Shown here: in pieces, positions 37,612 to 55,533 of the stretch
Numbering within the stretch: position 1 is the first letter of the stretch
How the letters are laid out: every line of letters starts with the position of its first letter
NCBI GenBank assembly: GCA_003597955.1
Contig: QZJU01000015.1
Span: 1 to 64,000, forward strand
DNA: 64,000 nucleotides
Reading direction: 5' to 3'
DNA from: Candidatus Parcubacteria bacterium
GTDB lineage: Bacteria; Patescibacteriota; Patescibacteriia; PEXW01
The notes under the pieces: model-generated
The model's input: the letters and a program-made list of their open reading frames with translations, nothing else
What the model was told of the DNA's origin: nothing
The model's database searches: none
Made by a program: the position numbers and the translations under genes

Positions 37612-38199
37612 TCAGCGGTCGACAATTTTTATAGAAATTATCGAATCCCCAACTTCGATTTTTTTGACTATTTCCATTCCGGCTACCACACGACCAAAAA
37701 GGTTGTAGTCTTTGGGCAATTTTCCAGTTTGGTCAGTAAGGGTTATAAAAAATTGCGAACCATTGGTATTCGGCCCGGAATTCGCCATGGCGACAGCCCC
37801 GGCCGTATATTCGCCCACTACTGGTTCGTCCTCAAATTTATAGCCTGGACCACCCGTACCATCGCCGTTTGGGTCGCCGCCCTGAATAACAAAATCCGGA
37901 ACGACCCGGTGAAAAATTAGACTATCATAAAAACCCGACTCCGCCAGATAGACAAAATTACTTACGCTTTTTGGCGCGTTTTTATAATCCAAAGAAAATT
38001 CTATGACGCCCTTACTCGTGTTTAAAACCGCTTTTTTGTCTTTGATTTTTTCCAAAGCTAAAACACCGGGAAAGGTATAAGACATACTGGTATTAGTTAA
38101 TTTAGGATTTATTGTGCCTGACCAAATAAGTCCGACGACGGCGAAAATTATTATAACCGGGATTAAGATTAGTAAGCTTTTTTTGACTTTTTGAATCAT
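37612..38199 (-). CDS. Membrane-anchored cyclophilin-type peptidyl-prolyl isomerase
   Basis: 195 residues. One N-terminal transmembrane helix (about 9-29) anchors a cyclophilin domain on the outer face of the membrane. Active-site blocks are intact: FHRVVPDFVIQGGDPNGDG (catalytic Arg) and ANSGPNTNGSQFFIT. It should assist folding of exported proteins by cis-trans proline isomerisation. Its ATG overlaps the stop of the FMN reductase gene. The window has a second, quite different isomerase domain inside SecD. Confidence 0.93.
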   Translation of the reverse strand: MIQKVKKSLLILIPVIIIFAVVGLIWSGTINPKLTNTSMSYTFPGVLALEKIKDKKAVLNTSKGVIEFSLDYKNAPKSVSNFVYLAESGFYDSLIFHRVVPDFVIQGGDPNGDGTGGPGYKFEDEPVVGEYTAGAVAMANSGPNTNGSQFFITLTDQTGKLPKDYNLFGRVVAGMEIVKKIEVGDSIISIKIVDR

Positions 38200-45611: not shown

Positions 45612-47165
45612 TTAGTCCACATAAGGTAAATTGACCGGTACCTGAGGTTCTTCGGTTCGAGGTTGGTTCGCTGGAATCGATGAAGGTTGGGCTTGCGAAA
45701 CTTGTTTCGGGGGGAAAGTCGCTTCAGTCGGTAAGCCTGTCGGCGCTGGCGCGGATGGTGCGGCAGACTTTGGTTGAACACGTTGAATTGGTAAAGGTTT
45801 TTCAAAAGGCAGTGTGGAGGGCGCGCCGGCGCGTTTTGTTTCGGTTTTCTGAACTTGACCGGCTTTCACATCAATAGTTGGGAAATGAAAAATCGTCGCC
45901 AATTCTTCCACATTAAGATAGATAGGCCGCCGGCCACGCCAAATCGAGCGCATTCGATAATTATACAAATTCCGCCGGTTTCTCAAAATGATTCTGTCAC
46001 GCTTAAAAAATACGATATCGCTGGTTTTAGTGTACTTGTTAAAAGTAAAAAAGTTCGAATCTTGCATGGCAAATTGCCGCAAAGCTCCGACTACACCATT
46101 AACGCCCCTGGCTTTGTTATACGGTTTTTGGCCATTTGGACCTGGAACCGTCTTTCCCCAGTAAAAAAAACGGCCTTTTACTTTAAAAGCAACTTTAGTC
46201 AATTTTATTTGAATCTGGGTTACGGTTTCTCTTTCACCTGGAGAGAGATGTAACATCAGTGAAGGTGGTTCGTCTTTTTTTATTTTTTCTTTTTCATGAG
46301 TCAATGGAATTAATGACGCGGTAATCGATTCTCTCACACCCTTGGCAACTTGCAAAGGCACTTCAAAGGGGCTAGCCTTGGCTGCGCCTTTTCTTCCGAT
46401 AATTTTGTTAACAATTTTTTCGGCTTTCTTACGCCAATGTGACGGCCATTCTTCCTGCTGTAAGACCCACTGCAGCCAAATTTGTTCATCGGGCCCTATA
46501 CGGTTCATTAATTCCAAAAGTGCTGCCATCGGGTCAATAAGCTTCTGGGTCAAGCCGTGTTCAAACATCGGATATGTCCGAATCGGATAAGCATCTGGAC
46601 GCGCTAGTTCAACCTGGGCTGACCAACAATCCCATTCAGGGTGCGGCAGATCCGAAGGTTTGGGCATTAAATCCACGTAATCCTCCACCTCAGTTATTTC
46701 GGCGTCGGGATATTGAGCGTAAATTGCGGATTCAATTATTTCCCGATGAACAATCAGGCACCTGACAAAAAATTGCACGTATCCACCCAGACTAACCAAT
46801 TCAACCGACATGCTGGGTGGCACAAAACCGTAGCCGAAAAATTCAGTAAAAGGCAAACCCCATTTTTCCGGAAATATTGGGGCCTTGGAAATGCCATTGA
46901 AATGCGCAAACATTTGCTCAGCAGCTTTAGGTGTTTGCTCACTGTCTTTTGGAACGTCGATGGCAAGCAAAACGTAGTTACCGGTGTAATACTTATTGAT
47001 ATAGCGACGATCAATAAATTCTTTCCAAGCAAATTTAAAACCAATAACAAAAGTGATGATGACGGCCAGCCAGCCACCATTAAGGAAAATAAACCACATC
47101 ATTAAAATTGGGTTGCCGGCCGAAGCCTGAAAAGCTTGGGCCATGGCCGAAAGATCAATTGTCAT
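45612..47165 (-). CDS. Conserved membrane-associated partner of the coupling-protein-like ATPase
   Basis: 517 residues. One transmembrane helix (about 19-46) is followed by a large soluble part and a proline/alanine-rich tail of about 80 residues. I know this gene type only as a hypothetical protein that travels with the TraD/HerA-like ATPase in Patescibacteria. It has no nucleotide-binding motif. The region AIYAQYPDAEITEVEDYVDL and the following fold loosely recall the N-terminal domain of VirB4-type proteins, but this is weak. A membrane platform for the ATPase is the simplest guess. Confidence 0.65.
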   Translation of the reverse strand: MTIDLSAMAQAFQASAGNPILMMWFIFLNGGWLAVIITFVIGFKFAWKEFIDRRYINKYYTGNYVLLAIDVPKDSEQTPKAAEQMFAHFNGISKAPIFPEKWGLPFTEFFGYGFVPPSMSVELVSLGGYVQFFVRCLIVHREIIESAIYAQYPDAEITEVEDYVDLMPKPSDLPHPEWDCWSAQVELARPDAYPIRTYPMFEHGLTQKLIDPMAALLELMNRIGPDEQIWLQWVLQQEEWPSHWRKKAEKIVNKIIGRKGAAKASPFEVPLQVAKGVRESITASLIPLTHEKEKIKKDEPPSLMLHLSPGERETVTQIQIKLTKVAFKVKGRFFYWGKTVPGPNGQKPYNKARGVNGVVGALRQFAMQDSNFFTFNKYTKTSDIVFFKRDRIILRNRRNLYNYRMRSIWRGRRPIYLNVEELATIFHFPTIDVKAGQVQKTETKRAGAPSTLPFEKPLPIQRVQPKSAAPSAPAPTGLPTEATFPPKQVSQAQPSSIPANQPRTEEPQVPVNLPYVD

Positions 47166-47171
47166 GTTGAC

Positions 47172-48314
47172 TTAATTTGTTTTAGAAGCGACATTAAGCG
47201 TAAATGCGCCGTCAGCTAACTTTTTAAATTTGTCTTTGTTAGTTAATGCCAAGTGTATGGTGTTTTTCTTAACCAAGCGTTGTTTTAATACTTCCTCAAC
47301 TAATTCTGAACGCTTCATTGGACGGTCAGCCTTTTTAAGTATGTCAATTAAAATGTCAGCAACTACCCCGGGTTTATAACCCCATTCTTTTAGGGCGTAG
47401 ATGCCTCTGCCGACCAAAACATAACGATCGTTTAATATAAGTTCGTTGTGAACCGTCGGCGGATAAGCAGTACGGTGATCAAATTTCGTTTCATTTATTA
47501 GCTTGGTTATTTCGTTGAAATGAAGGGGTTTTTTGGCTTTTTTTAAAATCAAATATATTTTATCGTTCATGCGTTTAGGAATGATCGTCCCCCATTCTGC
47601 CAAGCCAAATTCCTGATAGGGGTTTTTGGCAATGTGGGTACTAATTTCGATGTATGAAATAATTGCCTCGTCGGTTAATTGAAATTTGTGCTCGGTTCCA
47701 AACTTTGTTTCTCGGATCTTTTGAAGCAGCTCTGAAATTTTCAGCGGCTGATTCTCCAAGCGCAGAATTTCTTGGGCCTGCAAAATAGTCTCGTTAACCA
47801 AATGCAAAGGTGCGGTTTTTATCTGCCAGGCCGGATAATAATCTTCTGAAATTGTAAACTGTTTAAGCCGATTTTGCAGCAAAAATTTCATGATAAACAA
47901 AGTCGCCGATCGTGCCGTCAGCTGATCGTCTTTTATATCCAAAAGCTGCTTTAAAAGATTTTCTTCGCGCATCACACCTCCGTGGCCACTGATTACATTA
48001 ACAACCGCTTCGGCGATAGGTTGGATCTGCGAGGAATGCTCGCTGACTTTTCTTATCTTGTTAATTGCCCCTGATTCAATTTGTCGAATTCTCTCGCGTG
48101 TTACCTTATAGACTTCGCCGATTTGCTCTAGGGTTTCCGGAGTTTTGCCGTGTAAACCATAACGTCGTCGCAAAATATCTTCCTCTCTTGATGCCAAGCT
48201 TTTAAGTAATGTCGAAATAGTGTCATCGGGGTTAAAATGCTCAATTTCCTGCGTTTGCTTTTGATTAAGAACTCGATCCAATATTGAATCCGAATTTGTT
48301 TGAAGTTCCTCCAT
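47172..48314 (-). CDS. Sigma-70 region-4-like HTH protein with HARE-HTH domain
   Basis: About 380 residues. The N-terminal third carries a sigma region 4 signature (ILRRRYGLHGKTPETLEQIG then VTRERIRQIESGAINKIR), but no region 2, so it cannot act as a full sigma factor. A HARE-HTH (RpoE-delta/ASXL type) winged helix lies at about 250-310 (DKIYLILKKAKKPLHFNEI, GRGIYALKEWG). A second similar unit is near the C-terminus. It is likely a transcription regulator that touches RNA polymerase and DNA. The ATG at 48314 is preferred to a TTG nine bases upstream. Confidence 0.75.
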   Translation of the reverse strand: MEELQTNSDSILDRVLNQKQTQEIEHFNPDDTISTLLKSLASREEDILRRRYGLHGKTPETLEQIGEVYKVTRERIRQIESGAINKIRKVSEHSSQIQPIAEAVVNVISGHGGVMREENLLKQLLDIKDDQLTARSATLFIMKFLLQNRLKQFTISEDYYPAWQIKTAPLHLVNETILQAQEILRLENQPLKISELLQKIRETKFGTEHKFQLTDEAIISYIEISTHIAKNPYQEFGLAEWGTIIPKRMNDKIYLILKKAKKPLHFNEITKLINETKFDHRTAYPPTVHNELILNDRYVLVGRGIYALKEWGYKPGVVADILIDILKKADRPMKRSELVEEVLKQRLVKKNTIHLALTNKDKFKKLADGAFTLNVASKTN

Positions 48315-48342
48315 AAAAACCAAATTATTATTAAGCTTTTTT

Positions 48343-48429: not shown

Positions 48430-49329
48430 TTATTTTTTCTTTTGACGAAAATTATTCCAAGTCACCAAAATTGGCGAAGCTACAAAAATTGAAGAATACG
48501 TCCCTGAGGCTATGCCAATTAAAAGGGTAAGAACGAAATTTTTAATCGTGCTGCCGCCGAACAGAAATAAAGCTAGTAAAATTAACAAAGCTGTTAAGGA
48601 AGTATTGATGGAACGCACCAAGGTTTGATTGACGCTTTCATTGACGACTTCTTCGTAAGTCCTGCCTGCCAAACCTATCAGTCTTTCTCGAATACGATCA
48701 TAGACGACAATGGTATCGTGGACCGAGAAACCAAGGATTGTTAAAAGTGCGGTGACGAAAAGCGTGTCGATCTCCATACCAAAAAAGTTCCCAAGGATTG
48801 AAAAAATCCCAACCACCATTAGAATATCGTGGACTAAGGCGATGATTGCGCTGACGCCGTAAGTCCAAGAAGGCATGGGGCCGATCGAAACTTTTCGAAA
48901 TGCCCAGGTTATGTACAAAATAATTAACAACAAAACAATAGCAACGGCGGTAATGGATTTTCTTTTTAATTCCGAGCCGATCGTCGGGCCGATAGTCTCA
49001 AAGCTATTTTCGACTAATTTATCATCAGCCTTTCGCAATTCAGTCAAAAAGTCTTCGCGCTGATCATTTGTAATCGGTTCAAAACGAATAGCCACGCCTT
49101 GTTCGCCGGTAGTCTGAACATTAACTTGTTTAATCTCGGCGGTTCCCGCGGCTTTCTGAATTATCGCCGTTTCCGGAATAGATTTTGAGAATTCCAACCT
49201 TAACAGCGAACCACCAGTGAAATCAATGCCGAATCTAAACCCCCAAACAAACATTGAAATTATTCCGGGAACCAAAAGTACCAAGGAAAAAATGTAAAAA
49301 TATTTTCGTTTTTGGATTATGGCATACAT
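48430..49329 (-). CDS. secF: Protein translocase subunit SecF
   Basis: 299 residues with six transmembrane helices and an extracytoplasmic domain between helices 1 and 2. Family landmarks are GFRFGIDFTGGSLL, ESFETIGPTIGSEL-like FETIGPTIGSEL and GFSVHDTIVVYDRIRE. With SecD it uses the proton gradient to help pull proteins out of the SecYEG channel. It is 1 base downstream of secD. Confidence 0.95.
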   Translation of the reverse strand: MYAIIQKRKYFYIFSLVLLVPGIISMFVWGFRFGIDFTGGSLLRLEFSKSIPETAIIQKAAGTAEIKQVNVQTTGEQGVAIRFEPITNDQREDFLTELRKADDKLVENSFETIGPTIGSELKRKSITAVAIVLLLIILYITWAFRKVSIGPMPSWTYGVSAIIALVHDILMVVGIFSILGNFFGMEIDTLFVTALLTILGFSVHDTIVVYDRIRERLIGLAGRTYEEVVNESVNQTLVRSINTSLTALLILLALFLFGGSTIKNFVLTLLIGIASGTYSSIFVASPILVTWNNFRQKKK

Positions 49330-49330
49330 A

Positions 49331-51031
49331 CTATTCTTTGGGTGAAGGATTTTGCATGCGCGCGCCGAACCAACGCGGGTTTCTCGCGAATTTTAAGCTG
49401 GTGATCAAACGCAAAAGCGTCCGGGTAACCGTGATTGCAGAAAACAAACTAACCACTATACCAATTAACAAGGTTATCGCGAAGCCCTTGACTATGCTTG
49501 AACCAAACCAAATAAGGATCAAAGAAGTAATTATGCTGGAGACATTTGAATCTCGAATCGAGAGCCAGGCTCGTTTAAAACCTTCTTCAATCGCCGTGTC
49601 TAATGGCCGATTTGCCCCCAATTCTTCTTTAGTCCTTTCAAATATCAATATATTCGCATCCAAAGCGATGCCTATAGATAAAATGAAACCGGCGATCCCA
49701 GCCAAAGTCAAGGTGACTGGCCAAAGCTTGAAAATCGCCAAAACAATTAGGGTGTATAGAATTAAAGCCAAGGTAGCGACAAAGCCGGGCAGGCGATAAA
49801 AAATTATCATAAAAACCGCCACGACAAGAACGCCCAAAAGTCCGGCAAAAATGCTTCGGGCCACCGAATCTTCGCCCAAGGTCGCGCCGACGGTCTGTTG
49901 GCTAATTAAATTCACAGGTACGGGCAAAGCACCGGCGTTTAAACGTTTAGCCAAGTCCTTTGCTTCTTTTAATGTAAAGTCACCGGAAATAACGGCCTCC
50001 CCGCCGGTAATTTCTTGATTCACCACGGGGTTACTTAGTATCTGTCCATCTAGAAATATCGCCACATTCTTGCCGACATTCCGTTTGGTAATTTCCGCAA
50101 ACAGCTTAGCGCCATCACTATTAAAACTTAAAGTGACTTCAGGTTTGCCGGTCGATTGATTGAAGCTGACGCCTGCCCGTTTAAGCTGTTTACCGGATAA
50201 ACCAGTGTCTTTGTAATTTACCTGGGGCTGTGCCGAGGGCGTAGAAATTAAAATGTGCGCACCATGAACTTCTAAGATTTCCTGGTTGTTTTCAGTCACT
50301 TTCCGCTCTTCAATTTTCTTTATTATGTGGTAGCCGTAAGTGGTTTTGACTAATTTTGGAAAAACTTGCCCATTTTTTAAATCACCGAACAAAACCTCTT
50401 CAAATTCTTTAACAAAATCGCCTTTTTGAGCAAAACCCAAGTCTCCACCTTTCTTTTGATTGGTAGTAGCGTCAACATTACCTGGATCTTGGGAATATTG
50501 ATTTGCCAGCTCGCTAAAAACTTGCTTTTCGTCCAAGGCTTTTTTAAGAATATCTTCAGCTTTGGTCTTAGCCGCTGCGTCAAGTTCAGACTGTTGTTTT
50601 TCTTCTTCAGCGCTTAATGGCTTGACTTCAGCTGGTTCTTTAAACTCCAAAATCGGAGTATCACCGATGAGCTTAATGGCCTGATTTATATCTTTTATGC
50701 CAGCCAATTCAACAATAATTCTCCAGTCATTACCCGCTCGGCTTGTTTGAACGACTGGCTCAGAAACGCCAAAAGCGTTAACCCGGCTTTCAATGACATC
50801 TCTGGCGCTTTCCAAAGCAGAGGCCTGATCAGCGCTCTCGATGTTTGTCGTATCGGCTTCGTAAACTAAAGCCGAACCGCCCTGTAAATCCAAGCCTAAA
50901 CGCAAATCGAATTCCTTGCCGAAAATTTTAAATTTCGGCAAAAAATTCTTTGGCAAAGAAATATAGCTTACCGCTACTGCTAGAACGAAAATGAAGAAAA
51001 AACTAATCCAAACTTTTTTACGGGTCGTCAT
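49331..51031 (-). CDS. secD: Protein translocase subunit SecD with inserted parvulin-like domain
   Basis: 566 residues. SecD landmarks are DLRLGLDLQGG (about 42-52), VESRVNAFGVSEP-like SRVNAFGVSEP, DGQILSNPVV, ITGGEAVISG and six C-terminal helices with IGIALDANILIFERTKEEL. An unusual segment (about 140-262, genomic 50246-50614) lies between the P1 strand ending LEFKEP and the YKDTGLSGKQLK segment. It matches a parvulin isomerase: FSELANQYSQDPG, GGDLGFAQKGDFVKEFEE and TTYGYHIIKKI. The HGAHILIS strand that normally starts parvulins comes last. The reading frame is intact, so this is a true fusion, presumably folding substrates as they leave the channel. Confidence 0.93.
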   Translation of the reverse strand: MTTRKKVWISFFFIFVLAVAVSYISLPKNFLPKFKIFGKEFDLRLGLDLQGGSALVYEADTTNIESADQASALESARDVIESRVNAFGVSEPVVQTSRAGNDWRIIVELAGIKDINQAIKLIGDTPILEFKEPAEVKPLSAEEEKQQSELDAAAKTKAEDILKKALDEKQVFSELANQYSQDPGNVDATTNQKKGGDLGFAQKGDFVKEFEEVLFGDLKNGQVFPKLVKTTYGYHIIKKIEERKVTENNQEILEVHGAHILISTPSAQPQVNYKDTGLSGKQLKRAGVSFNQSTGKPEVTLSFNSDGAKLFAEITKRNVGKNVAIFLDGQILSNPVVNQEITGGEAVISGDFTLKEAKDLAKRLNAGALPVPVNLISQQTVGATLGEDSVARSIFAGLLGVLVVAVFMIIFYRLPGFVATLALILYTLIVLAIFKLWPVTLTLAGIAGFILSIGIALDANILIFERTKEELGANRPLDTAIEEGFKRAWLSIRDSNVSSIITSLILIWFGSSIVKGFAITLLIGIVVSLFSAITVTRTLLRLITSLKFARNPRWFGARMQNPSPKE

Positions 51032-51099: not shown

Positions 51100-52494
51100 T
51101 TAATTTTGCACCTTGACCGGTGTCCCAATACCAGTCCAGCTGAACACCACAACCGATTCTTTGGGCGAAAGCCGAATGCAGCCATGCGAAACTCTCGTCC
51201 CTAAATGGTTGGTACCTTCGTAATAAATCCCCCCATTTTTCAAGCGCCAATACGACAAAGAATGGATGCCGTACGCCCCGTCCGGCGTAAAAGCCATCCA
51301 ATTATCCATATACAAAGCGTAGCGCCGAGAATAAGCCGTATTGATTTTGTTGTGGATGGAAAAATTGCCTAGTGGCGTTGGCATTGACCATTTGCCAGTT
51401 GAGACGCGGTGAGTGGCAATTAATTGACCGTTTTCGTAACGGCGCATTTTTTGATCAGAAATATCAACGACAATTAATTTGCCCTTGCTGGAAACCGAAT
51501 CTGAAGTTTCGATTTTCCCAGGAACGGCGATGATTTCCATATTTGCGTCTTGGTCAATATCAACAGTCGCAATGGAAAGTCCTTGGGTGTAATTTTTGCC
51601 AAACGGGAAAAACTTAATTTTACCAGCTTTACCATCAGTGGTGTAGCTCAAAACTTGTCCGGCAGCGCCGGGCGCACTGGCCAAAATAATTTCTTTTTGA
51701 TTTTGATTTAAATTTTCGGCAATGCGGACGGCGTTTGGAAAAGCATTCGCGGTTTTGAAAGTCGCGGCCAGAATGCCAGAAGGTTTAAAAATTTTAACCA
51801 AGGAATTATTCTCCAGCTTGCTGGTCACGATTTCGGCTAAACCGTCATTGTCCACATCAATGGCTTGCGGAATAACTCCGGTATGACTGTTTTGCGGGTA
51901 AGCCCAAAATTTTTGCAAAATTTGTCCTTGGGCATTAAAAATTAAGATTCGTGGTCCACCGCCAGCGCCCGGCGCTACGACGATTTCAGATTTCCCGTCG
52001 CCGTCAATATCCGCCGCGTCTAAAAATACGCCGCCTTTAAATTTGCGCTCATAGGCCAAAAAGGTTTTTAACCGTTTGCCCTCTCTATCCAAAATCCATA
52101 TTTCCGGAGTCGTACCTTTGCCAAAACCCACCACCAAATCTTTTTCGCCATCACCATTAACATCCCCAACCGCAATTCTGACCGTGGGATTATTTTTTAC
52201 GCTTGGAAGTTTGATGTTTTTCAGAACGGTGCCATCAAGCTTTAAAATCCGAATGCCCGGATCCTTGCCTGCGGCCGTCCCATACAATATTTCGGTTATT
52301 CCGTCATTATCAAGATCAGCGGTGGTGACATTGGAGCCCGGCTGAATGTTGGGGATTTTTTGAAGTAATTTGCCGGAGGCATCAAAAAGCCCAGCCTGGT
52401 ATTGAGCCGCTTGGGTAATTTTTGCAAAACCTAAACTTGCCAACACTACAATGCCGACAATAAGTACCCTAAAAATAGCTTGATTTTTTTGCAT
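51100..52494 (-). CDS. Secreted FG-GAP beta-propeller fused to L,D-transpeptidase (YkuD)
   Basis: 464 residues with a signal peptide (about 1-29). About 30-340 is a propeller of FG-GAP/VCBS repeats with calcium-type loops such as DLDNDGITE, DVNGDGEKD, DIDGDGKSE and DVDNDGLAE. The C-terminal 120 residues are a YkuD domain with the catalytic SHGCIRL (Cys near residue 441) and the upstream GIHSLSYW histidine. YkuD enzymes make 3-3 peptidoglycan cross-links or attach proteins to the wall, and are carbapenem-sensitive. The propeller may bind a partner or glycan. Confidence 0.85.
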   Translation of the reverse strand: MQKNQAIFRVLIVGIVVLASLGFAKITQAAQYQAGLFDASGKLLQKIPNIQPGSNVTTADLDNDGITEILYGTAAGKDPGIRILKLDGTVLKNIKLPSVKNNPTVRIAVGDVNGDGEKDLVVGFGKGTTPEIWILDREGKRLKTFLAYERKFKGGVFLDAADIDGDGKSEIVVAPGAGGGPRILIFNAQGQILQKFWAYPQNSHTGVIPQAIDVDNDGLAEIVTSKLENNSLVKIFKPSGILAATFKTANAFPNAVRIAENLNQNQKEIILASAPGAAGQVLSYTTDGKAGKIKFFPFGKNYTQGLSIATVDIDQDANMEIIAVPGKIETSDSVSSKGKLIVVDISDQKMRRYENGQLIATHRVSTGKWSMPTPLGNFSIHNKINTAYSRRYALYMDNWMAFTPDGAYGIHSLSYWRLKNGGIYYEGTNHLGTRVSHGCIRLSPKESVVVFSWTGIGTPVKVQN

Positions 52495-52629: not shown

Positions 52630-52905
52630 ATGATAGAGAAAACTGGTACAGATGAGAAAGCTAGATGGTTAAAAGCGATTTCACCAAAATCCACAAAGTC
52701 ATCGCTAAAGCCGCGGCTTTTTCTTTACTTTGTGTCCAATCACATTTTTCATCCTCCTGCGCTAAAGATACGGAGGGATTGGAAGATATCACCTCCCGTG
52801 ACATTTCTTGTATTTTTTTCCAGAACCGCAAGGGCAAGGATCATTGCGGCCGATTTTTTGACTCGCGTAAGGGTTGCCGGAATTCTGGGAAACCTGGGGC
52901 GCTGA
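52630..52905 (+). CDS. Possible small gene or gene remnant, antisense to the end of secA
   Basis: The start is well marked by a promoter, a Shine-Dalgarno and an ATG, and the first 18 codons ([16 protein letters not shown]) look like protein. The rest is basic with no recognisable family, and the last 117 bases run antisense through the secA 3' end. A second frame from 52665 gives a Cys-containing secreted-looking peptide. A short decayed gene with a frameshift is possible. The surrounding 52495-52788 interval holds only this, the two promoters and small hairpins (for example AAAGCCGCGGCTTT). Confidence 0.3.
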
Positions 52906-55488
52906 GCTTGAAAAATTCTCTGTGGCTTCTTTGGCTGGAGCCGAGAGCGTCAAATTCTTGGGCTGCTTGGCAGGCTCGGCAACGCCCGAAGAAATATGTA
53001 CTTTAAAAATACTGTGTACTAATTTCGAACGAATGGAACTTAGAAGCTGGCTGAATAAAATGTAGGCTTCTTTTTTGTACTCCACTAATGGATCTCTCTG
53101 GCCATAACCGCGCAAACCAATGCCTTGGCGTAAATGGTCCATAAGATCCAGATGCTCTATCCAAAGCGTGTCGATTATACGCAATTCCACGGCTCTTTCC
53201 ACCAGACGCATTAAATTTTGATTCATTTCTTTGGCTTGGCGGCCGGTAGGGCTTTCATTCACCTGTTTTTCCAGGTTTTCATACGCTTCCAACATCAAAT
53301 TCTGCAAATGTTCAGTTATGGCATTGCGGATTGATGCCGTGAGGCCAGCGCTACCTTGCTGTTGACGAAAGGCCTCTAATTTCAAACGAGCTTGAAACGG
53401 AATCGAAAATAAAGCGTCAGTCGATTCGTAGATTTCGTCCAGATTCCACTGATCTTCCCGGTCAGCCGAAGTGTGAGTTGAAACTATCTGACTTATTTCC
53501 TCATTTATGGCCTGCAAAATTATTTGTTTGCGGCCTTCGGGCTGGTTTAGTGAATTAACCACTTCCCGACGGCGGGAATAGATCACTTCGCGATGTTTGT
53601 TAATCACATCGTCATATTCCACCAAATGCTTGCGGATATCGAAGTTGTGGCCTTCCACCTTCTTTTGCGCGCTTTCAATCGAACGGGAGATCATTTTATT
53701 TTCAATCGGCATATCCTCAGGCACGCCCAAGCGTTCCATTAAACCTTTTACCCGGTCACCGCCGAATATCCGCATTAAATCGTCTTCCAGTGACAAGAAA
53801 AACTGCGAAGAGCCGGGATCGCCCTGCCGACCCGCACGTCCACGCAATTGATTGTCTATCCGCCGCGACTCGTGCCGTTCGGTGCCGATGACATGTAGAC
53901 CACCCAAAGCTTTAATTTTTTGAGCCTCCTCTGGATTCGGCGGGTTTCCGCCCAAAATGATATCGACGCCGCGGCCGGCCATATTTGTGGCCACGGTCAC
54001 CGCGCCAATTTTACCGGCTTGGGAAATCGTACCGGCTTCTTTTTCATGGTTTTTGGCGTTCAGGAGATTATGTTCTATTCCTTCCCTTTGCAATAACTGG
54101 CTTAACATTTCGTTTTTAGCGATTGATATAGTGCCGATCAGAGTGGGTTGGCCTTGTTCGTGCCTGACTTTGATATCCCGGACTATCGCTTCATATTTGC
54201 CTTTTTCGTTCTTAAAAACGCTGTCGGGAAAGTCTTTTCGAACCATAGGCTTGTTCGTGGGAATAGAAACGACTTCTAAACTGTAGATTTTTGAAAATTC
54301 TTCAGCTTCGGTGGCGGCCGTACCAGTCATTCCGGATAACTTTTTGTACATCCGAAAATAATTTTGGAAAGTGATGGTGGCCAAAGTTTGGGATTCCTGC
54401 TTAATTTCCACGTGTTCTTTGGCTTCAATCGCTTGGTGCAAACCCTCGGAGTAACGGCGGCCGTGCATAAGGCGGCCAGTAAATTCATCAACGATTATCA
54501 CTTCATTGTCTTTGACAACATAATCACGATCCCGTTTGAAAAGCGCGTGGGCTTTAAGGGCTTGTTCAATGTGATGAACCATTTCCACACCTCCGGCCTG
54601 ATAGATATTTCCCACGCCCAACCATTTTTCTATTTTTGCGATGCCGTTTTCAGTTAAAGTTGCCGCGCGCAATTTTTCGTCAACATTGTAATCCGGACCC
54701 TCTTCCAGCTTCTGAACTAAATCCGCAAAACGATAATACTGTTCGCTGGGCGTATCGGCCGGTCCGGAAATTATCAAAGGCGTACGGGCTTCATCAATTA
54801 AAATTGAGTCGACTTCATCCACAATGGCATACGCCAACCCACGTTGAACCAGGTACTGCGGATCCGGAACCATATTGTCCCGCAAATAGTCAAAGCCAAA
54901 TTCGTTGTTGGTGCCGTAGGTAATGTCTGCGCGGTAAGCCGTGGCTCGGTCAACCGGCCTTAAATTCTTATTGGTTTCATCGCCGGTAAATTCCGGATCA
55001 AACAAAAAAGCCGCTTCGTGCTGTATGGTTCCAACGGATAAACCGAGAAAATGATAAATTTGACCCATCCAGCGCGTATCGCGTTTGGCTAAGTAGTCGT
55101 TTACCGTCACCACATGGACGCCTTCTCCGGTAAGCGCGTTTAGATAGGCGGGTAGCGTCGCGACCAAGGTTTTTCCTTCGCCAGTCTTCATTTCTGATAT
55201 CTTTCCGGAATGTAAAACAATGCCGCCAAGCAGCTGCACATCAAAATGCCTCTGACCCAAAGTCCGGCGGGCAGCCTCCCGGACTAAAGCAAAAGCTTCA
55301 GGCAGCAGTTTATCCAAACTTTCGCCTTTGGAATAGCGCGCGTAAAATGCCTTGGTTTTTTCCGGAAATTGCAAATCCGAAAGCTTTTGCATTCCTGGTT
55401 CTAAAGCGTTAATTTTAGCAACTAAAGGCTGAAAGTCCTTTAAAACTCTTTCATTGGGGTCGCCAAAAAATTTATTTAGAATACCCAT
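52789..55488 (-). CDS. secA: Preprotein translocase ATPase SecA
   Basis: 899 residues from the ATG at 55488, normal length. Present are Walker A in [13 protein letters not shown], the [19 protein letters not shown] block, a preprotein cross-linking domain, the second nucleotide fold with [14 protein letters not shown] and [18 protein letters not shown], and a C-terminal SEC-C zinc motif ([14 protein letters not shown]). It drives export through SecYEG. The TTG three codons upstream is less likely. SecD, SecF and RseP in the same window complete much of the export set. Confidence 0.97.
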
Positions 55489-55533
55489 ATAACTCAAGCT
55501 AGCTTACAGGTTTGACACAAAAAAACAATACTC

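Follow-up and report, generated by a model that had tools for sequence, protein, structure and literature searches.

The sec gene cluster and the SecD protein

The window, a stretch of 64,000 nucleotides from a Candidatus Parcubacteria bacterium (contig QZJU01000015.1), contains a cluster of sec genes on the minus strand. The secD gene (49331..51031), encoding a protein of 566 amino acids, is immediately followed by secF (48430..49329; PF02355, 1.5e-60, and PF07549), and secA (52789..55497), recognised by eye from the motor domain, the MAGRGVDI motif and the C-terminal zinc motif of its ORF, lies upstream in the same direction. Between secA and secD sits a gene for an L,D-transpeptidase (YkuD) with FG-GAP repeats (51100-52494). 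The ORF adjoining secF (47172-48323) combines an N-terminal sigma-70 region 4 with a HARE-HTH domain near the C-terminus, and an ORF of 517 residues that also adjoins the cluster (45612-47165) has an N-terminal membrane segment and no Pfam match at E 0.01.

The window SecD (P0001) scores 396.7 bits against TIGR01129 (curated cut-off 244.4), aligns with NF009585 with equal lengths, and has Thermus SecDF (3aqp, 1.1e-84) as its best solved relative. Together with an AlphaFold2 model, these comparisons divide the protein into TM1, a P1 base, an insert with a permuted parvulin, a P1 head and TM2-6. The N-terminal part of the P1 base, which ends with the strand LEFKEP, corresponds to residues 39-133 (50633..50917, minus strand; PF21760 SecD_1st at 74-133, with residues 29-117 of Thermus SecDF aligned), and the P1 head subdomain to residues 266-371 (49919..50236, minus strand; PF22599 SecDF_P1_head, 9.7e-34). 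The profiles for the P1 base, the head and the membrane domain (PF21760, PF22599 and PF02355) all exceed their cut-offs; the Sec_GG profile falls below its own (16.3 versus 20.3), although the GLDLQGG motif is present. D458, located in the proton-relay stretch of TM4 (ALDANILIFER), is kept in 86 of 86 homologues; from the alignment with Thermus SecDF and general knowledge, we take it to be the known TM4 aspartate of proton flow.

The protein resembles known SecD and SecDF proteins (TIGR01129; Thermus 3aqp and 5yhf) in its six-helix RND-type half, its P1 base and head, the GG motif, the TM4 Asp and the adjacent secF, and the top structural matches of its model are SecDF. Judging from its sequence, it is an ordinary proton-driven subunit of the SecDF type apart from one region: Thermus SecDF has about 42 residues (117-160) and no enzyme domain at the point where the window SecD has about 145 (132-278).

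An intact parvulin domain between the P1 base and the P1 head

The sequence-only reading had placed a parvulin of about 120 residues between LEFKEP and GLSGKQLK, and our profile searches of this segment bear it out. The insert matches PF13616 (Rotamase_3) with 1.5e-19 and 71.1 bits (cut-off 22.5) and PF00639 (Rotamase) with 3.3e-17 and 63.7 bits (cut-off 21.7), and a further Rotamase-family match reaches 1.9e-18, scores that place the similarity far beyond chance. The span originally proposed, 50246-50614 (residues 140-262), falls inside the insert, but the complete insert, formed by a linker and the permuted parvulin, is larger and covers residues 134-266 (50234..50632, minus strand). A Pfam search detected no SurA_N match in the window SecD.

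The characteristic motifs follow one another in the order LEFKEP (128-133), FSELANQYSQDPG (172-184), GGDLGF (195-200), TTYGYHIIKKI (230-240), VHGAHILIST (255-264) and GLSGKQLK (from 277). By motif alignment, the active-site residues of Pin1 find their equivalents in H259 (Pin1 H59), D182 (C/D113, the cysteine of Pin1 being Asp in many parvulins), L198 (L122), F206 (M130), F210 (F134), T230 (T152) and H235 (H157). Among 86 single-insert homologues, H235 (codon 50327..50329, minus strand) is present in all 86 and H259 (codon 50255..50257, minus strand) in 84, both histidines occurring together in 84; D182, L198, M/F206, F210 and T/S230 are likewise conserved. Sequence and model both indicate that the parvulin domain (residues about 139-264) is intact and sits where the P1 base passes to the P1 head.

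The domain shares its core, active-site residues and predicted fold with parvulin/PpiC-type peptidyl-prolyl isomerases (PF00639, PF13616; PrsA, SurA, Pin1, Par14). It differs from canonical parvulins, which are free or carried on a SurA-type chaperone module, by its insertion in a membrane motor protein, and also by the position of its first strand, which comes last in the sequence, so that it is a permuted variant and not a canonical member.

Probable circular permutation of the SecD parvulin

Ordinary parvulins open with the strand that bears the first catalytic His (xxHILV), and this strand, beta-1, neighbours beta-4 in the sheet of the Pin1 fold. The earlier reading recognised this strand at the end of the SecD domain, as VHGAHILIST at about 255-264, and it is indeed found at 255-264, after the core. 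We modelled the window SecD with AlphaFold2 on the 86 single-insert homologues (mean pLDDT 89.0, blocks of the insert mostly 95-98); with a pTM of 0.59, the placement and orientation of the parvulin domain relative to P1 are uncertain in this model. The core (50291..50611, minus strand), as delimited by DSSP of the model and by the conserved residues, consists of alpha-1 (141-166), alpha-2 (172-179), beta-2 (197-201), alpha-4 (208-217) and a long beta-4 (233-247). After a turn of two residues, beta-4 runs straight into the strand 250-263 (EVHGAHILI; 50243..50284, minus strand), with which it forms a hairpin, and this connection argues for a circularly permuted domain in which the strand 250-263 is the displaced beta-1. 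The modelled arrangement is what one would expect of a circular permutation that cuts the fold between beta-1 and alpha-1, with the two new termini facing the side attached to P1.

The opposite assignment, in which the P1-base strand LEFKEP acts as beta-1 of a parvulin of normal topology and HGAHILI belongs to the P1 head, can be drawn from the sequence: LEFKEP just precedes the core, where ordinary parvulins have beta-1, and the PF13616 match weakly begins at residue 133. We nevertheless regard it as very improbable. In the model, LEFKEP (128-133) forms a short strand of its own, after which comes a linker, the P1 head opens with strand 273-279, and 250-263 pairs with beta-4 (233-247) instead, contrary to the case in which HGAHILI would be a strand of SecD P1. 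LEFKEP also lacks the His that is supplied by H259, and LEFR or LEFK is equally frequent in SecD proteins devoid of an insert.

Rearranged sequences point in the same direction. The Pfam match of the natural domain starts beyond beta-1, from profile position 8 of 97 onward; when the last strand is moved before the core, the Pfam scores rise by 3-8 bits and the match reaches profile position 1 in all four proteins tried (for instance, from 69.2 to 74.1 and from 63.9 to 71.0 in the window SecD, and from 106.4 to 114.9 in L020). A control with the unrelated SecD strand LEFKE put first in the window protein gave 72.9 and 67.5, so the margin is small for this protein. Scored for 84 homologues against a profile of independent normal-order parvulins, most of which come from other phyla, the true strand gains a median of 3.7 bits over its own shuffles, of which 69 out of 1680 do as well (beaten in 96%), and the LEF strand gains a median of 0.4 bits. 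With a profile built from SecD proteins with two parvulin cores (see below), the median gain is weak (0.9 bits), probably because the domains of these proteins have a long loop after beta-1. Conservation of the histidine pair in 84 of the 86 homologues is stronger evidence for permutation, at the level of sequence, than the rearrangement scores.

Foldseek/VIA-align comparisons of the whole single-core model retrieved SecDF and RND transporters, with no parvulin among the matches listed; this says nothing against the fold, since the membrane domain fills the list and the aligners follow the sequence order. Predicted secondary structure, sequence and conservation thus agree in supporting a circularly permuted SecD parvulin, and the permutation suspected from the order of the motifs alone is now backed by the hairpin, the histidine pair and the rearrangement tests.

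Distribution of the insert among SecD proteins

The survey of Patescibacteria called for by the initial observation revealed that the insert is a regular component of SecD in the class of the window. A SecD match was obtained in 229 of 239 genomes of this class, every match listed running through the insert, and 135 of the 136 SecD proteins fetched, mainly best matches and thus a sample leaning towards good ones, hold one or two recognisable parvulin cores. In two near-complete genomes of this class the search detected no SecD (G017 had no match at all and G032 a parvulin match only), and SecD loss is possible in both.

That the insert-bearing SecD could be a chimera, an assembly error or a functionless relic might be envisaged because the genome is a draft in 21 contigs. 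We give this idea almost no credit: the insert is read in one open frame across many families of the class, including those of complete or near-complete genomes, and its active-site columns are invariant.

In other classes of the phylum, most SecD proteins have 430-480 residues and no insert. Some SecD or SecDF proteins from these classes (families f111, f78, f150 and f89) contain a degenerate stretch followed by an intact parvulin of normal order. Inserts of 250-350 residues, composed of a normal-order parvulin and a degenerate stretch, were seen in SecD or fused SecDF proteins of other classes (L215-L220, L100 and L221-L225). A long insert likewise occupies this position in SecD proteins of Calditrichota, Deferribacteres and KSB1, but these inserts are not parvulins (best E 0.34).

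Stand-alone permuted foldases and the probable source of the insert

The permuted order also occurs outside SecD. The phylum has stand-alone SurA/PrsA-like foldases of 300-440 residues with one TM and a SurA_N-like domain, which end with the core, beta-4 and the motif xxARHILI. Among 55 distinct proteins sampled, 51 are permuted (42 assigned by pattern and nine by reading sequences that the pattern did not settle or marked on both sides), and their sequences indicate that this order is the usual one for stand-alone parvulin foldases of the phylum. The permuted loci include L101, L102, L164-L179, L183-L210 and L226-L230. The four others (L211, L231, L232 and L233) have the normal strand order, and two of them, L211 and L233, share the C-terminal helix of the permuted proteins, so both strand orders occur on one scaffold.

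Like the SecD domain, the permuted stand-alone proteins present the core and then VRARHILI at the end; they differ from it by their single TM, their SurA_N domain, the C-terminal helix that follows the moved strand, and the absence of any junction with SecD. They are the probable source of the SecD insert. The permutation itself would most likely have originated from tandem parvulins, of which one core was retained together with the opening strand of its neighbour. The core of the first parvulin domain (P1) of E. coli SurA and the first strand of the second (P2) align in line with the SecD insert, an illustration of the way in which two parvulins in tandem could give rise to a permuted one.

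Nested two-parvulin SecDs and the direction of evolution

A second form, representing about one third of the SecD proteins fetched from the class, has about 690 residues and the order core1, HILI strand, core2, degenerate strand. It is exemplified by L146 (212-2254, minus strand) and encoded at 44 similar loci. The pair formed by the middle strand and core2 has both histidines in all 45 of these proteins, and the shell made of core1 and the last strand keeps both in only two. This pairing pattern predicts a normal-order parvulin inside a decayed permuted one. In the model of L146, the two domains share two continuous strands, 245-267 and 353-376, and the inner domain (256-361) superposes on the whole catalytic domain of Pin1 (51-163) with a Z-score of 18.6 and 1.6 A over 104 residues. 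Sequence and model therefore agree in describing the two-core form as an apparently intact normal-order parvulin nested in the hairpin of a decayed permuted shell.

One SecD, L042 (1444-3189, minus strand), has a degenerate core1-like core and a degenerate last strand with no inner domain. It is sister to the nested L054 in our tree (support 100) and apparently represents a natural excision of the inner active domain.

The case of L042 raises the question of whether the single permuted parvulin is secondary, an ancestral nested form having had its inner normal-order parvulin cut out and its permuted shell left behind. This scenario concerns the origin of the domain and is compatible with the function that we favour below. 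It would fit the occurrence of nested forms in several classes, as well as the tree of insert cores, in which single cores group with core1 and not with core2 (support 88) and core2 groups with other classes, a tree that rests on 88 columns and has modest support. We consider it rather unlikely. Both histidines are retained in 2 of the 45 nested shells versus 84 of the 86 single forms, and most single forms therefore cannot derive from shells like those known. Moreover, the SecD backbone tree places nested forms among single forms, although it is poorly resolved; neither tree is resolved well enough to fix the direction of evolution.

Possible function of the SecD parvulin

In SecDF, proton flow swings the P1 head, believed to hold the chain as it emerges (reviewed in PMC8669966). 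The membrane-held parvulin foldase PpiD contacts the periplasmic domain of SecD and cooperates with SecDF (PMC9643414), and SurA binds SecDF-YidC, leading to the proposal that SecDF recruits SurA to the exit (PMC9987972). PpiD and PrsA resemble the window SecD in holding a parvulin on the outer side of the membrane near SecYEG/SecDF; they are separate proteins with chaperone domains of the SurA_N type, whereas the window parvulin belongs to SecD itself and lacks a chaperone module. The active-site residues of the SecD parvulin, its position and the contacts of PpiD and SurA with SecD make it most likely that this domain isomerises or holds substrates leaving SecYEG. It could act as an active peptidyl-prolyl isomerase, perhaps also as a holdase, on these chains and, riding on the P1 head, would do in cis what membrane-anchored PpiD and soluble SurA do in trans at the SecDF of proteobacteria.

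SurA can do without its parvulin domains in vivo according to Behrens 2001, as cited in PMC8669966, and a catalytic role of the SecD domain thus cannot be assumed. The permuted parvulin might serve for binding only, as an extension of the P1 head that provides a holdase or recruitment surface, catalysis not being its purpose. Besides the SurA precedent, such a role would explain why the shells of the two-core form are kept despite the loss of both histidines, and in the FCB group this site of SecD is filled by unrelated inserts of comparable size, suggesting that bulk may itself be useful there. We judge this explanation unlikely, since single-core forms strongly keep every catalytic position and, wherever the shell has decayed, the inner parvulin is intact (45 out of 45), a pattern suggesting that selection maintains one functional active site in each SecD. 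On balance, it is quite probable that the window encodes a SecDF-type SecD with an intact permuted parvulin, a putative isomerase that meets substrates leaving SecYEG and whose permutation probably arose from tandem parvulins.

A broader proposal is that the permuted parvulin is standard in the whole phylum and built into the proton-driven arm of SecD, where isomerisation would be spatially coupled to the power stroke, and that nested SecDs, with a permuted and a normal parvulin sharing two strands, preserve natural intermediates of the permutation. We put this forward tentatively, its chances being slightly short of even.

The component families are known, and the permuted order, the fusion with SecD and the nested form are new as far as we could find: a search of open-licence papers for permuted parvulins or other permuted peptidyl-prolyl isomerases and for SecD-parvulin fusions returned nothing relevant, an absence that is not proof. 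The permuted domains described here apparently constitute the first family of naturally permuted parvulins, and the single, nested and shell-only forms illustrate routes by which a permutation can be acquired and undone. The fusion bears on the reception of exported chains beyond SecYEG and on the reasons for which PpiD and SurA gather at SecDF. It provides direct evolutionary evidence that a parvulin belongs at SecD P1, and offers a simple system in which this can be tested in cis.

Other peptidyl-prolyl isomerases of the genome

The initial observation had also pointed to a membrane-anchored cyclophilin near secD. This protein exists (195 amino acids; 37612..38199, minus strand; PF00160, 1.1e-40) and has a hydrophobic N-terminal helix (LLILIPVIIIFAVVGLIW), but it is a separate isomerase encoded about 11 kb away, in no common operon with secD and not part of the SecD system, and adds little to the case for the insert. 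It is the one cyclophilin match found in the genome.

The sole other parvulin foldase, L163 (362 amino acids; contig C10, 477-1562, minus strand), has degenerate motifs. It lacks the catalytic His (GYEIV) as well as the His of the final strand (TLRRILK), its GGDLG motif is replaced by GGLLEV, and it is likely a pseudo-enzyme. SecD thus holds the only parvulin of this genome with an intact active site and, with no other intact parvulin and one cyclophilin match, its domain may act as one of the main isomerases in the envelope of these reduced cells.
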